From Deltaproteobacteria bacterium (GTDB taxonomy: Bacteria > Desulfobacterota > GWC2-55-46 > S146-70): a stretch of 5,542 nucleotides of DNA. The stretch is from the NCBI GenBank assembly GCA_015492395.1, contig WGFD01000206.1, positions 1-5,542 of the forward strand, read 5' to 3'. Below, in pieces: positions 1,334-5,542 of the stretch (its first letter is position 1; the number at the start of each line of letters is the position of its first letter). The position numbers and the translations under genes were made by a program. The notes below the pieces were generated by a model, which saw nothing but the letters and a program-made list of their open reading frames with translations, was not told the origin of the DNA and made no database searches.

Positions 1334-3103
1334 TCAAATAAGCACTCCTTCGAACCTGCTCTTCATCTCATAGTTTATGTACGACTCCACTTCGCTGGTA
1401 GTGGAGAATTCCAGGATCTTTTCGCCTAAGCTCATCATATCACTGTAACGTATGGACCTGACTATCTTCTTGACACGCAGTATAGCCAGGGCATTCATGC
1501 TAAGTTGCTTCAACCCCAACGCGAGGAGTGCCATGGTACAGCTCGGGTCGCCAGCCATCTCCCCACAGACACTTACATCTATACCGGCCCTGTTTGCCAC
1601 ATCTATAACCCCCTTAATAGTCCGGAGCAGGGCCGGGTGCAGCGGCTCATAGAGATAGTCTACATGCTCATTACCCCTGTCAATAGCCAGGCAATACTGA
1701 AGAAGATCGTTTGTCCCGATAGAGAAGAAGGCGACATGCTTCGCAAGGTGGTCTGCGACTATTGCGGCCGATGGCACCTCTATCATTATACCGACCTCCA
1801 CGTCCGGGTCGAACGGCTTCTTTTCCCGCCTTAACTCGCTCTTGGCCTCCTCAAACACCTTCAATGCCCCAAGAAACTCCGCCACTCCCGATATCATGGG
1901 AAACATTATCTTGATATTTCCAAACACACTTGCCCTCAGGATACCCTTCAATTGCGTCTTGAAAACATCCGGCCTTTTCATACAGAGCCTTATCGCCCTC
2001 AGCCCCATCGCCGGGTTCACCTCCTTTTCATAACCCAGATTGGAAGTGAACTTATCCCCGCCAAGATCCAATGTCCTGATAATCGTAGGGTGGGGAGAAA
2101 CACGTTCAGCCACCTTCTTACACGCAGACAGATGCTCTTCTTCGGTCGGCAGGTCAGTCCTGCCAAGATAAAGAAATTCAGTCCTATAAAGGCCTATACC
2201 TTCCGCTCCGTGATCGGTCAACTGGCCGATCTCGTTCAGGAACTCTACGTTGCCCATCAGCCTTATCCTCTTGCCGTCTATTGTTTCAGCCGGCAGCTCA
2301 CTGTAATTGTGTAGTGACTTCTCGTAAGAAAAAAACTGCTTCTTGTGCCACTCATACTCCCTGATCACCTCCATGGATGGATTTATCACCACAGTGCCGG
2401 AGGTGCCATCAACTATCACGGTATCACCGTTCCTCAGGAGAGTCATTATGTTCTCCAACCCCACAACGGCCGGTATCTCCATAGATCTGGCGACAATGGC
2501 CGTGTGTGAGGTCCTCCCGCCCATAACCGTCACAAATCCCTTCACCTTGTCCTTAGACAACTGTACCGTATCCGTCGGAGCCAAATCCTTTGCTACGACT
2601 ATAACCTCTTCGTCTATATCGGTGATCTTGTCTCTCCTTTTGCCGATAAGGTTTCTCAAGATACGATCACCGATATGTTCGATATCGGCCCCTCTTTCCC
2701 TCAGGTACTCATCCTCCGTCTTGTCAAAGAACTCTCTTATCCCGCGGAGCACCATCTTAAGCGCCCACTCCGCGTTCACCTTTTCTCTTTTAATCGTCTT
2801 TATAGTGTCTTCGATCAGCATCTCATCATACAACATCATAATATATGCATCTATTATATGAACATGCTCTCTCCCCTTCTTGTTCTGCAGGATCTTGGCT
2901 CTTAACCTTTGCAACTGTTCCTGGGATATCTTGACCGCTCTTTTAAACCTCTCTATCTCATGCAAGAGGAAAGAGTCCTCCAGATGGCAAAAGGCAGGGA
3001 CCTCCACCCCCTCCTCCGGGATTATCAAGGCCTTGCCAATAACGATACCCGGCGAAACACCAATCCCTTTCAGGGTTATGCCGACACAACTTCCAGTTTT
3101 CAC
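1334..3103 (-). CDS. ptsI: PTS enzyme I (phosphoenolpyruvate-protein phosphotransferase)
   Basis: Cytosolic first enzyme of the phosphotransferase system. It takes phosphate from phosphoenolpyruvate onto a histidine and passes it to HPr. The protein has 589 residues, close to the usual 570-590. The phospho-histidine domain holds GGRTSH, with active His200. The C-terminal PEP-binding barrel holds Arg307 (RTEF), Arg343 (RTLDLGGDK), Glu442 (IEVPSAA), Asp466 (GTNDLLQY), Arg476 (DRGN) and Cys513 (VCGEMAGD). All seven sit exactly 11 residues later than the key residues of the E. coli enzyme as I recall them (189, 296, 332, 431, 455, 465, 502), so the core has no net gap and the catalytic set is complete. 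The start is GTG, overlapping the HPr stop as GTGA, with GGGGAGG just upstream. No better start is visible. It is the last gene of the PTS cluster. Confidence 0.97.
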   Translation of the reverse strand: MKTGSCVGITLKGIGVSPGIVIGKALIIPEEGVEVPAFCHLEDSFLLHEIERFKRAVKISQEQLQRLRAKILQNKKGREHVHIIDAYIMMLYDEMLIEDTIKTIKREKVNAEWALKMVLRGIREFFDKTEDEYLRERGADIEHIGDRILRNLIGKRRDKITDIDEEVIVVAKDLAPTDTVQLSKDKVKGFVTVMGGRTSHTAIVARSMEIPAVVGLENIMTLLRNGDTVIVDGTSGTVVINPSMEVIREYEWHKKQFFSYEKSLHNYSELPAETIDGKRIRLMGNVEFLNEIGQLTDHGAEGIGLYRTEFLYLGRTDLPTEEEHLSACKKVAERVSPHPTIIRTLDLGGDKFTSNLGYEKEVNPAMGLRAIRLCMKRPDVFKTQLKGILRASVFGNIKIMFPMISGVAEFLGALKVFEEAKSELRREKKPFDPDVEVGIMIEVPSAAIVADHLAKHVAFFSIGTNDLLQYCLAIDRGNEHVDYLYEPLHPALLRTIKGVIDVANRAGIDVSVCGEMAGDPSCTMALLALGLKQLSMNALAILRVKKIVRSIRYSDMMSLGEKILEFSTTSEVESYINYEMKSRFEGVLI

Positions 3104-3396
3104 TCCTCCTCCCCGAATTTATTATCGATAAGGTCGCCTAACTCAGCCACCGCATCCTCCGCGTCATCACCTTCAGCCCGTATAGTAATGCTGGTACCTT
3201 TCGTAGCGGCGAGAGTCAATACTCCCATTATACTCTTCCCATTTACTTCATAATCGTTCTTCGATACATAGATATCAGACTTGAACTTATTTGCCATCCG
3301 AACGAACTTCGACGCAGCCCTCGCGTGCAGTCCAAGCTTATTGCTTATAGTAAAGATACCCGAAGCCTTCTTGTACTTATTTTCGCCGCATGCCAT
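3100..3396 (-). CDS. ptsH: Phosphocarrier protein HPr
   Basis: Small cytosolic carrier that moves phosphate from enzyme I to the IIA component. It has 98 residues, with about 9 extra at the N-terminus (MACGENKYK) compared with the usual 85-90. The active-site block NKLGLHARAASKF contains His24, equivalent to His15. NGKSIMGVL carries Ser55, equivalent to Ser46, the residue phosphorylated by HPr kinase in Gram-positives and in many proteobacteria. Both sites are offset by 9, so the core aligns without gaps. Start: ATG at 3396, 8 bases after AGGAGGAG; there is no nearby in-frame alternative. The stop overlaps the ptsI start. The intact serine site implies a regulatory HPr kinase/phosphorylase in the genome, not seen here. 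Confidence 0.96.
   Translation of the reverse strand: MACGENKYKKASGIFTISNKLGLHARAASKFVRMANKFKSDIYVSKNDYEVNGKSIMGVLTLAATKGTSITIRAEGDDAEDAVAELGDLIDNKFGEEE
3104..3114 (-). promoter_or_regulatory. ptsI ribosome binding site embedded in the end of ptsH
   Basis: The minus strand GGGGAGGAGGA lies directly before the GTG start of ptsI. The same bases encode the last Gly-Glu-Glu-Glu of HPr. With the 4-base GTGA overlap this suggests translational coupling of HPr and enzyme I. Confidence 0.75.
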
Positions 3397-3419: not shown

Positions 3420-4202
3420 CTACTCCACTATACCACTAATAAAAGAAATCAACATAATAGGCCCGGCAATCAGATAGATGAGAGTCTGGATAGAGTATCC
3501 CTTTCTCATCAAGATGGATAAGAGCGGTATGGCCACGGCCAATGAAACGGTCATTACACAAAAGAGCAGGAGTGGTATATCCCCGATACCACCGAGGCCG
3601 GGAAGAGGCATATAAGCTGTGATACCGACCGCCAAAACAGCCAACATACCGCCCATCAAATACCTTATTCTCCCACTCCACGTCGGCAACTCAAGCCCAC
3701 CTATATGCTCTATGGTATCTTCCCCGTAACTATAACCCCTCCATAAACACGTCCACCTCATCCAAAGATGAAAGGCATTGTATATAAAAAGGAAGACCAG
3801 CACACCATATATACCCAGAACCATTATGGACCCAACGCCTACTATAGAGGCCAGCGGTCTGGCTGCCCCCCAAAAAAACCTGTCTCCTATTGCGCCAAAC
3901 GGCCCGCTTACGGCCTTCTTGAACATAATTATGTCATCAGGGGATCGAATCCCTTCTTGCACTTCCTCTTCCATCCTTATTACGGCACCAAGCACAGGAG
4001 AGGCCATGTACGGATGAACATTGAATGTCTCCACATGTCTTCGCAGCGCAATCCGCCGCTTATCCCTATTACGGTAGATCTTTTTAAGCGCCGGAGCCAA
4101 CGCAGCAACGAAACCAAGTCCCTGGAGCCTTTCATAACTCCATGAGGACTGGAGAAACAACGAGTTAAAAAATACCTTTATCAGCGTCTTCCTATCCACC
4201 AT
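3420..4202 (-). CDS. PTS mannose/fructose/sorbose-family IID membrane component
   Basis: One of the two integral membrane subunits of a mannose-family PTS permease, forming the sugar channel with IIC. 260 residues from the chosen start, within the usual 260-280. The N-terminal cytosolic part has the family's FLQSSWSYERLQGLGF (residues 16-31) and NVHPYMASPVLGAVIRMEEE (61-80). The hallmark SGPFGAIGDRFFWG is at 99-112. Hydrophobic segments follow at about 115-142, 182-200, 208-231 and 238-257. Start: I chose the ATG at 4202 (MVDRKTLIKVF), which matches the usual family beginning and overlaps the IIC stop by 11 bases. A longer version from a TTG at 4232 would add 10 residues with no family support. 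No Shine-Dalgarno sequence is visible, so it is probably coupled to IIC translation. The substrate cannot be told. Confidence 0.93.
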   Translation of the reverse strand: MVDRKTLIKVFFNSLFLQSSWSYERLQGLGFVAALAPALKKIYRNRDKRRIALRRHVETFNVHPYMASPVLGAVIRMEEEVQEGIRSPDDIIMFKKAVSGPFGAIGDRFFWGAARPLASIVGVGSIMVLGIYGVLVFLFIYNAFHLWMRWTCLWRGYSYGEDTIEHIGGLELPTWSGRIRYLMGGMLAVLAVGITAYMPLPGLGGIGDIPLLLFCVMTVSLAVAIPLLSILMRKGYSIQTLIYLIAGPIMLISFISGIVE

Positions 4203-4923
4203 TATAACCATAGTACAGAAACGTAAAGACAATGAGCGCTATCACAACGAAGAATGAATATACAAAATATATCCATTTGCTATATATAATGTTAAAAGCG
4301 GCGGCGAGACCCAGCACGAGCAGGGCGAACCACGCAATGGGGAGTCCAGTTGAAGCGAGGGAGTCCGGCATTCTCATGTAAATCACATAAATCATATGCA
4401 CGCCTGCAAGAACCGATATGAATATGGAGAGACTCCCGGCAAGGAAGAATAGCACAAGCCCTTTAAGGTTATTCCTGACAACCATATCTCCAACCTTGTC
4501 ATCCGGAGCCCCCTCAACGGCGTCAAAGAAGCGTGTATTATATCTCCTTGCAATCGCTTCCAGTCTGTTATAAAGAGTTCCCATAGGCATTATCAGCAGA
4601 GTGGCCAAGACCATCACGGACAGCATACCGGTTCCTTCCAACCCAAGCCATCTGGAACATATAACAGTTACTGCCGTACACACCGTGGTTATTACCGTCT
4701 CGTTGGGCGGCACATAACCTCCCAAGGACATATTACCCACAAATAAGAGCTCAAAGTAAATACCCGCCACCAGCCCAACCAGTAAATTACCCAATAAAAG
4801 ACTTAGAACCGGTGCCACGACAATTGGTCTGGAGATCATAACCTGGAATGCGGCCGTCCTATCTATCGACAACCCTCCGCCCAACAAGGAGATCATAATG
4901 GTTTCCCTTAAAAGGTCGGTCAT
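4192..4923 (-). CDS. PTS mannose/fructose/sorbose-family IIC membrane component
   Basis: Integral membrane subunit of the same permease. 243 residues, slightly short for a family of about 250-270. The N-terminus has the typical order: a hydrophobic helix, SIDRTAAFQVMISRPIV (residues 19-35), a long hydrophobic stretch (36-63), then the family signature GGYVPPNETV (68-77). Further membrane segments lie at about 78-114, 154-181, 193-213 and 215-238. A charged cytosolic loop at 118-152 (RLEAIARRYNTRFFDAVEG and beyond) separates the two halves. The ATG at 4923 is 11 bases after the IIB stop, without a clear ribosome site. The stop lies inside the start region of IID. No substrate specificity can be read; a mainly regulatory role is also possible. 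Confidence 0.93.
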   Translation of the reverse strand: MTDLLRETIMISLLGGGLSIDRTAAFQVMISRPIVVAPVLSLLLGNLLVGLVAGIYFELLFVGNMSLGGYVPPNETVITTVCTAVTVICSRWLGLEGTGMLSVMVLATLLIMPMGTLYNRLEAIARRYNTRFFDAVEGAPDDKVGDMVVRNNLKGLVLFFLAGSLSIFISVLAGVHMIYVIYMRMPDSLASTGLPIAWFALLVLGLAAAFNIIYSKWIYFVYSFFVVIALIVFTFLYYGYNGG

Positions 4924-4934
4924 CTATTTGCCGA

Positions 4935-5393
4935 TCACAAGTCTATAGGCCTATCATAGGGCACGGCCCTTATCTGTATGGGTACCCCCATACTTTTAAG
5001 CCTTTCGATTATGCCTTCATCAACCTTGTCTATGTAAACAGACCTGCTGATCTGCTTAGTCTCGCCACCGTGATGTATATTGCCCATATTGATACCCGTA
5101 ACTTTAACACCGCCTTCGCAAAGCCGCATAGCGTCATCCAAGGTGCCGACAAGGACAATCGTCCTGCGTTCGTCCATATTGCCCGACTTGATCTCCCGAA
5201 TAGCGTCGTTGATTCCAAGGACATGAATGGTAAGACTGCTAAACCCGCATGATTCGATAGCCAGCCTTTTAAACCGATTGGCCGCGGCGTCATCTGAAGC
5301 CACTAAGATGTAGTCCGCCTTCAAGAACGGTACCCACGACTCCACCACTTGGCCGTGTACCAGCCTGTCATCGACTCTGACCAAGACTATCAT
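4935..5393 (-). CDS. PTS mannose/fructose/sorbose-family IIB component
   Basis: Soluble phosphotransfer subunit that takes phosphate from IIA and hands it to the sugar at the IIC/IID channel. 152 residues, as expected for a stand-alone IIB. It opens MIVLVRVDDRLVHGQVVESW, the family's active-site region, with phospho-accepting His13. The second conserved block GINMGNIHHGGETKQISRSVY lies at about 100-120. The ATG at 5393 matches the family start exactly. The only ribosome-site candidate is a weak AGGG 8 bases upstream. This is the first gene of the visible operon. No IIA partner is fused or present in the window; it may lie beyond base 5542 or elsewhere. Upstream lies an unusual chain of hairpins that would form the 5' part of its mRNA. 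Confidence 0.94.
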   Translation of the reverse strand: MIVLVRVDDRLVHGQVVESWVPFLKADYILVASDDAAANRFKRLAIESCGFSSLTIHVLGINDAIREIKSGNMDERRTIVLVGTLDDAMRLCEGGVKVTGINMGNIHHGGETKQISRSVYIDKVDEGIIERLKSMGVPIQIRAVPYDRPIDL

Positions 5394-5412
5394 AATACCA
5401 TCCCTGTGATTT

Positions 5413-5429
5413 CAACTCTTTCCGAGTTG
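5413..5429. repeat. Hairpin A, nearest to the IIB gene
   Basis: CAACTC (5413-5418) and GAGTTG (5424-5429) are perfect 6-bp arms around a 5-base loop (GGAAA on the minus strand). It lies about 20 bases before the IIB start codon and leaves the ribosome region free. Confidence 0.6.
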
Positions 5430-5444
5430 TACTTATGGAACCTC

Positions 5445-5470
5445 TGAATAATTCATCCCTGAATTATTCA
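5445..5470. repeat. Hairpin B, 10-bp perfect inverted repeat
   Basis: TGAATAATTC (5445-5454) and GAATTATTCA (5461-5470) are perfect arms around a 6-base loop. On the minus strand the loop reads AGGGAT and is part of an 8-base CAGGGATG that recurs just before the IIB start. Two more outer pairs form beyond a single mismatch. Confidence 0.8.
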
Positions 5471-5475
5471 AAGAC

Positions 5476-5505
5476 GAAAAAGAAAAAGTGCAATTTTTCT
5501 TTTTC
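5476..5505. repeat. Hairpin C, 12-bp perfect inverted repeat of A/G against T/C
   Basis: Two copies of GAAAAA (5476-5487) face two copies of TTTTTC (5494-5505) across a 6-base loop, giving a perfect 12-bp stem. One arm is all purine and the other all pyrimidine, with only two G-C pairs, so as a terminator stem it would be weak. Confidence 0.8.
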
Positions 5506-5508
5506 TCA

Positions 5509-5539
5509 CATTTTCAATGACTTACAGCCATTGAAAATG
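5509..5539. repeat. Hairpin D, 14-bp inverted repeat with 3-base loop
   Basis: Arms 5509-5522 and 5526-5539 pair along 14 positions. The outer 11 (CATTTTCAATG against CATTGAAAATG) are perfect. The only non-standard position is A-C if the plus strand is transcribed and a tolerated G-U if the minus strand is. It ends 3 bases from the window edge, so an upstream gene or further hairpins could follow. No run of T comes after it on the minus strand. Confidence 0.8.
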
Positions 5540-5542
5540 GCG

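Follow-up and report, generated by a model that had tools for sequence, protein, structure and literature searches.

The hairpin chain upstream of a PTS operon is probably the cut-off end of a 152-base mobile element with five conserved hairpins and predicted CsrA-type GGA loops

The window analysed here, a stretch of 5,542 nucleotides from a Deltaproteobacteria bacterium (assembly GCA_015492395.1, contig WGFD01000206.1), carries genes for the PTS components IIB, IIC, IID, HPr and enzyme I (EI), followed by metK. All six genes lie on the minus strand, and thus the hairpins located at the end of the contig stand upstream of IIB on the coding strand (Table 1).

Table 1. Genes and structural features of the window
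Feature	Positions	Strand	Basis
PTS enzyme I (PF05524, PF00391, PF02896)	1334..3103	-	profile match
HPr (PF00381)	3100..3396	-	profile match
PTS IID (PF03613)	3420..4232	-	profile match
PTS IIC (PF03609)	4192..4923	-	profile match
PTS IIB (PF03830), first gene after the element	4935..5393	-	profile match
6-bp hairpin, loop GGAAA (5 bases), host leader of IIB, outside the element	5413..5429	-	by eye and fold
ATAA, expected right-hand target-site copy	5433..5436	-	location agrees with the 4-base duplications seen at other copies
Right-hand 106 bases of the 152-base five-hairpin element	5437..5542	-	copies share the stretch and diverge past window position 5437
Hairpin H4, loop GGGA, adjoining the right end of the element	5442..5473	-	14-bp arms with one mismatch; inverted-repeat scan and fold
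Hairpin H3	5476..5505	-	12-bp arms, loop of 6; inverted-repeat scan and fold
Hairpin H2	5509..5539	-	14-bp arms with one mismatch, loop of 3; inverted-repeat scan and fold

The four near-perfect hairpins that a sequence-only reading of this DNA had reported were all recovered by eye, by an inverted-repeat scan and by folding. The minus-strand RNA of the hairpin stretch reached -53.2 kcal/mol versus a mean of -27.3 for shuffled sequences (z = -7.33), and none of 200 shuffles was as good. That reading had taken the four hairpins as a single chain with arms growing with distance from the gene. The last three do belong together, whereas the 6-bp hairpin is host sequence and does not occur next to the other copies compared; moreover, complete copies elsewhere in the genome have two more hairpins, five in total, the chain in the window being cut by the contig end. 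The 10-bp arms ascribed to H4 correspond to a perfect core of its longer arms, and the gradual growth of the arms is accidental. The view that an ordinary terminator does not explain the feature holds: none of the four terminator-like sites (GC-rich stem plus T run) detected by a scan falls within positions 5413-5542. Likewise, a search against Rfam 15 gave no match at the gathering score of any family in the three stretches tried (window 4900-5542, L192 2600-2900 and L013 2500-2800), where matches to known RNAs were sub-threshold or absent.

The genome of origin (G000; 2.09 Mb in 359 contigs, 93.4% complete) was searched with the 149 bases upstream of IIB as query. The matches were near-identical and stopped at, or a few bases from, window position 5437; when 18 copies with identities of at least about 95% were placed side by side, their right-hand neighbours were all different. 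A dispersed palindromic element inserted at this site was one of the options in the sequence-only reading, which had also suggested looking for other such chains in the genome; near-identical copies at many sites with diverging flanks, at least 18 in number, bear this option out. The complete unit has 152 bases and comprises five hairpins in the order H1, HB, H2, H3 and H4, where H1 is GGAAGGTCTGA-TTTAT-TCAGACCTTCC and HB is GCGGCACA-GGGA-TATGCCGC; the unit terminates in CAGAGGTTCC, after H4. H1 and HB are missing from the window since the contig stops at position 5542, and it stops there because the element is a repeat. Counting the query copy itself, 16 full or nearly full copies were 96-100% identical to it, and older copies at 67-81% identity were also found. 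Full copies are 145-154 bases long, apart from one of 161.

With its 152 bases the element is too short for a transposase gene and lies within the size range of miniature inverted-repeat elements (MITEs, <500 bp). Its ends are of the GGAASSTCTGA type, forming terminal inverted repeats that are imperfect (GGAAGGTCTGATTTATTCA versus GGAACCTCTGAATAATTCA). Identical 4-base flanks were found in 6 of the 11 copies of the own genome with both flanks available (TTAA twice, CTAA twice, ATAA and TTAG) and in 53 of 79 gammaproteobacterial copies. These duplications are mostly YTAR (TTAA, TTAG, CTAA, CTAG), together with some ATAA and others. For the window copy one side alone is visible, the left partner of its ATAA falling past the contig end. 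Hence, the hairpin chain is almost certainly one end of a short mobile element of non-coding DNA. From its sequence characteristics we file it as a putative MITE that differs from the usual kind by a conserved, structured body which appears to swap ends.

Two identical 27-base minimal derivatives (GGAA..TTCC) are also present in this genome (G000:C337:2670-2696 and G000:C346:1977-2003), at different sites and with perfect flanks (TTAG/TTAG and TTAA/TTAA). They represent either a still-mobile 27-base element or the same internal deletion occurring twice.

IS5 targets the motif YTAR (PMC10359306). The own genome holds one IS5-family element with like ends, in contig C140 (GGAATCTCTGATTTATTC and GGAAAGTCCGATTAATTC). 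Its transposase is recognised by the IS5-family model NF033581 and shares 70% identity, over 324 columns, with the transposase of a Nitrospira element bounded by GGAAGGTCTGATTTATTC and GGAACGTCTGATTAATTC. Between ends of this kind, NF033581 scored 296-348 bits at one locus of the own genome (L093) and two of Nitrospira (L189 and L226). The C140 element lacks identical 4-base flanks and, therefore, may not be an active source. The occurrence of IS5-family elements with such ends in both the own genome and Nitrospira makes a transposase of this family the likely mover: very probably the element is moved by an IS5-family enzyme, which would act on it in trans. An IS1-type element in contig C337 was considered as a partner and rejected: its ends are alike, but it has inner repeats of its own and an 8-base near-duplication, which suggest insertion into a small hairpin. 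This element (L090, positions 1089-2312) has two overlapping reading frames (NF033558/PF03400) and apparently sits inside a tiny hairpin with MITE-type ends.

An exact 29-base pattern gave no match in the genome contig collection, and a wider pattern was used instead on named-species genomes, yielding at least 115 stretches, of which 80 loci were fetched. Going by their labels, these loci come from Gammaproteobacteria or Proteobacteria, Nitrospira, Deltaproteobacteria and a small number of other groups. Paired ends were found in 45 of the 80, giving 51 pairs, 47 of them shorter than 400 bases (in 11 of these 47 the pair is just both arms of a single 27-base end hairpin); three pairs were long, with that of L178 being doubtful. 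Strong matches to the five-hairpin body (at least 59 bits) occurred in 15 of the 80 stretches, and those inspected among the others have other bodies. Many other MITEs with GGAASSTCTGATTWATTC ends carry different bodies, some built on GTCATTGCGAGC-type repeats (L153-L172, L173-L252). As far as tested, a phage or plasmid element is not indicated: the exact end pattern had no match in viral contigs, the L192 copy none in plasmids or phages, and the L299 copy none in plasmids.

The body of the element is conserved as structure. Out of 30 candidate copies screened, one without its left end plus L011, L014 and the truncated L021-L023 were left out, resulting in an alignment (A1) of 24 elements from the own genome, G055 and named Proteobacteria. 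In this alignment, 89.6% of the cells are paired and 25 of 59 pairs have changed on both sides. Two-sided changes amounted to 100 cells versus 29.3 in shuffled controls, which ignore relatedness, and at most 50 in slid controls, which keep it; the covariation score was 0.273 versus 0.143 and at most 0.127, respectively. HB, H2 and H3 together account for 22 of the 25 two-sided pairs (9 of 14 pairs in H2 and 7 of 12 in H3) and H1 for three. None of the 14 pairs of H4 changed in this way, and this helix is also the least well paired (82.4% of cells), a result partly due to a shift of its 5' arm between groups within the alignment.

Covariance models located the body in at least 6 of 395 genomes of the phylum, the own genome counted (R1), and in at least 73 of 369 genomes of the class of Dyella (R2, built on 37 copies), at least three of the 73 having supplied copies to the model. 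As just 7 or 8 candidates per genome were scored, these counts are lower bounds; the isolate Dyella choica alone gave at least eight scored matches. A set of 79 gammaproteobacterial copies was then compiled from 30 loci first fetched, minus seven at contig ends, plus 56 newly fetched; two of its members, L341 and L389, coincide with L214 and L245 of the first set. Of 4475 stem cells in the 79 copies, 4204 are Watson-Crick. Selection on RNA of the modelled strand would be expected to produce an excess of G.T over A.C mismatches. The ratio was 58:30 in the first set (p = 0.004) and 64:47 in the second (p = 0.13; by genome 14 versus 4, p = 0.03), the events not being independent.

The same body was also found under other ends. 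Copies in G294 and G251 start with TGATGACTTCGC and are accompanied, as read by eye, by duplications of four bases (CCGT and TATA, for example); those in G314, G467 and G674 have CAGGCTGTTGAAAAA-type ends, and those in G019 a related-looking repeat. Indeed, G467 (L318, L394, L395) and G674 (L332, L379-L381) each hold, in one genome, the five-hairpin body with two kinds of ends, GGAA included. In copies with other ends, the new end again forms the palindrome H1, and the arms of H4 are new as well. Since the body survives a change of ends, it does not merely serve one transposase, which is the main reason for favouring a function of its own. Together, covariation and conserved loops favour a role of the element, in general, as a single strand or as RNA, and we consider it likely that selection on RNA or single strands, and not repair alone, has maintained the body.

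The loops were analysed in 45 elements, including two decayed ones (L096 and an old copy in L105), and in the 43 remaining without them. Broken or decayed copies (L097, L098, L148, L150-L152, L176, L201, L206 and L236 among them) were left out of both sets, as was L293 of G149, a copy of 114 bases without GGA in its HB loop. L206 and L236 are five-hairpin copies with an extra stretch after H1, each giving two partial model matches. Among the hairpins detected in the 45 elements, GGA was present in 32 of 34 HB loops and 35 of 44 H4 loops, versus 0 of 127 loops of H1, H2 and H3. The motif ANGGA occurred in the HB region of 40 of the 43 elements and in the H4 region of 39, with 104 occurrences on the modelled strand versus 13 on the other; mononucleotide shuffles of the modelled strand gave a mean of 26.7 and a maximum of 39 (200 shuffles). 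The 79 further copies behaved similarly (76 of 79 in HB, 77 of 79 in H4; 184 occurrences on the modelled strand versus 24), their loops being partly selected since these copies rank among the top matches of a model derived from GGA-bearing elements.

A stricter test, based on sequence only, required ANGGAN closed by at least four pairs. Such hexaloops were found 56 times on the modelled strand in the 43 elements and 93 times in the 79, and never on the other strand; 27 sibling MITEs, which share the ends but have other bodies, yielded three, both strands together. At least one was present in 38 of 43 and 75 of 79 elements. The stems closing the HB loop vary, with GCAC/GTGC, GTAC/GTGC, GCCC/GGGC, CCCC/GGGG and ATCC/GGAT among them. 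The commonest H4 loop, in 45 of 79 elements, is just AGGAU, which lacks the N of ANGGAN, and therefore two strict hexaloops occur in only 15 of the 79. The loops of H2 (GNAA-like) and H3 (YCRCRY-like) are constrained too.

The SELEX consensus for CsrA is RUACARGGAUGU in six-base loops with AC and GU pairing, most of the selected hairpins have four pairs or fewer, RsmE structures contain an ANGGAN loop, and CsrA bridges sites 10-63 nt apart (PMC7652899). HB has 8 pairs. The two GGA sites of the element are about 90 bases apart and thus outside the bridging range; the intervening H2 and H3 stems could bring them closer in space. CsrA is widespread. A gene search found it in 12 of 13 hosts (own genome counted; G443 was the host without a match) versus 3 of 14 control genomes, a weak test that addresses a necessary condition only. 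The element RNA, if made, is predicted to offer GGA docking loops to CsrA/RsmA. Transcription of the element and reading of its loops by CsrA are what we infer from these patterns; CsrA/RsmA is the best named candidate for the reader, an assignment that is tentative and somewhat below even chances.

The 79 copies lie near gene 3' ends, at a median of 26 bases behind a same-strand gene and with a median of 50 bases between the copy and a gene ending towards it; seven are within a longer open frame. The neighbouring genes had no significant orientation bias in this set, the ratios being 43:31 for 5' neighbours and 34:40 for 3' neighbours. Same-strand genes made up 24 of 36 5' neighbours in the first set, as judged by eye with a cruder gene call.

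Regarding the PTS locus, 51 relatives had a IIB match, and in 28 of the 29 loci fetched a IIA gene precedes IIB, with gaps of -4 to 269 bases. A search run without a positive control found no IIA gene in the own assembly. As IIA stands just upstream of IIB in relatives, the window element probably lies within the operon, inserted between IIA and IIB. In a comparison of this intergenic region in relatives, suggested by the sequence-only reading, the gap of 11 bases in the closest genome (G001) fits an insertion. The gaps of other relatives do contain folding sequence, different from that of the element. Eight of them (L061-L068; seven of family f6, one of f3) have strongly folding IIA-IIB spacers of 82-192 bases (z from -3.1 to -8.2 with mononucleotide shuffles), as if this junction tolerated or favoured palindromes.

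The explanation that we consider best, and hold with good confidence, is that the window shows the cut-off end of a 152-base MITE, probably carried by an IS5-family transposase, with five conserved hairpins, placed at the IIA-IIB junction, and that its RNA would present predicted GGA loops for CsrA/RsmA. The transposase would have carried the element into the junction; the ends would serve movement, and the body an RNA function independent of which transposase moves the element. Within a transcript, the element would place CsrA sites and strong hairpins beside a gene; transcribed on its own, it would act as a decoy. An artefact of assembly, which the sequence-only reading had named as a way in which its claim could fail at a contig end, has practically no probability left. 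The feature does touch the contig end, but complete copies are found inside many other contigs of the own genome and inside long contigs of G706 and G570, and the window copy is 94-98% identical to long matches, several of them inside other contigs. A native regulatory leader of the PTS operon, be it an attenuator, riboswitch or terminator, would suit a structure standing directly upstream of IIB on the coding strand, in a junction where eight relatives have other strongly folding spacers. It is nevertheless very improbable, being refuted as a locus-specific device by the same sequence beside many other genes and disfavoured by the Rfam and terminator results. Co-option by the PTS operon after insertion is possible; a real effect of the element on this operon seems doubtful to us.

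The alternatives that bear on the body itself carry more weight. The hairpins could matter as DNA only, through template-switch (quasipalindrome) repair or as transposition or replication signals, with no RNA role. Stems that are nearly all Watson-Crick, mismatches without a clear G.T bias in the 79 copies, neighbours without orientation bias, and an H1 that is the palindrome of the end sequence in each end type speak for this explanation. However, repair keeps stems and not the same GGA loops under different stems, and a signal for one transposase would not persist once the ends change; we regard it as a minority possibility. Cruciform-forming protein sites are likewise possible. Comparable in weight to the DNA-only account is a structured RNA module read by a factor other than CsrA (another RNA-binding protein or an RNase) that would protect or process host mRNAs. 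The constraint on the H2 and H3 loops, which CsrA alone does not explain, and the position of the copies near gene 3' ends speak for such a reader, whereas the HB loop closely fits the published CsrA motif (PMC7652899) and no named alternative was found. Returning to the five-hairpin MITE with predicted CsrA/RsmA loops, its boldest extension is a transposable, end-swapping CsrA/RsmA-binding RNA module that would spread CsrA sites or decoys and rewire or tap the carbon-storage regulon in many Gammaproteobacteria and in bacteria labelled Deltaproteobacteria, here in a sugar-PTS operon. This extension is speculative, and we would bet against it at present.

Dispersal is common to this element and to REP/BIME sequences, dispersed intergenic palindromes associated with RAYT transposases; unlike them, the element has defined ends, 4-base duplications, a DDE-type candidate partner and five different hairpins per unit. 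With IS5-family elements (NF033581) it shares the kind of ends and YTAR target sites, but it has no transposase gene, and its body is unrelated to that gene and occurs also under other ends. Like the CsrB and RsmX/Y/Z-type RNAs, it is short, with several hairpins, an ANGGAN hexaloop (in HB) and a GGA-containing loop in H4; in contrast to them, it is mobile and multi-copy, has two GGA loops and not many, and had no Rfam match to those families at threshold. Bacterial MITEs such as Chunjie of Geobacter uraniireducens, QMITE of Coxiella and the Correia element are shorter than 500 bp, with inverted-repeat ends, target duplications, intergenic location, many copies and stable stem-loops in a possible transcript (PMC10969869), all of which apply here. 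Chunjie has also been reported inside an operon, and thus this type of site is not new (PMC10969869). Compared with these MITEs, the element stands apart by a near-fixed length of about 152 bases and by a five-hairpin body covarying across distant bacteria and end types. Literature searches by topic returned no paper that we recognised as describing it, and searches with its end and loop strings returned, among the matches listed, eukaryotic subjects throughout.

The interiors of MITEs are usually seen as filler. In this element, the interior retains its structure in distant bacteria and under different ends, suggesting that the body has a function of its own. Should the loops be CsrA sites, a single family of elements would link transposition with a global post-transcriptional regulator, and the element may carry a regulatory switch between genes, provided that the RNA is made and CsrA docks. 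The origin of CsrA regulons and decoy RNAs could then be approached through the question of whether loci carrying the element become members of the regulon. Even without CsrA, the covariance models allow the annotation of an abundant element for which no Rfam family was found.

Two minor features of the window concern sequences outside the element. An 18-base inverted repeat lies inside the EI gene (positions 2616-2676), its arms being 89% complementary and separated by 25 bases. In addition, the host leader of IIB (positions 5399-5429, minus strand) combines the GGAAA loop of the 6-bp hairpin with ACAGGGATG at the ribosome-binding site; its two GGA are 17 bases apart, a CsrA-target-like layout that was not seen by eye in G001.
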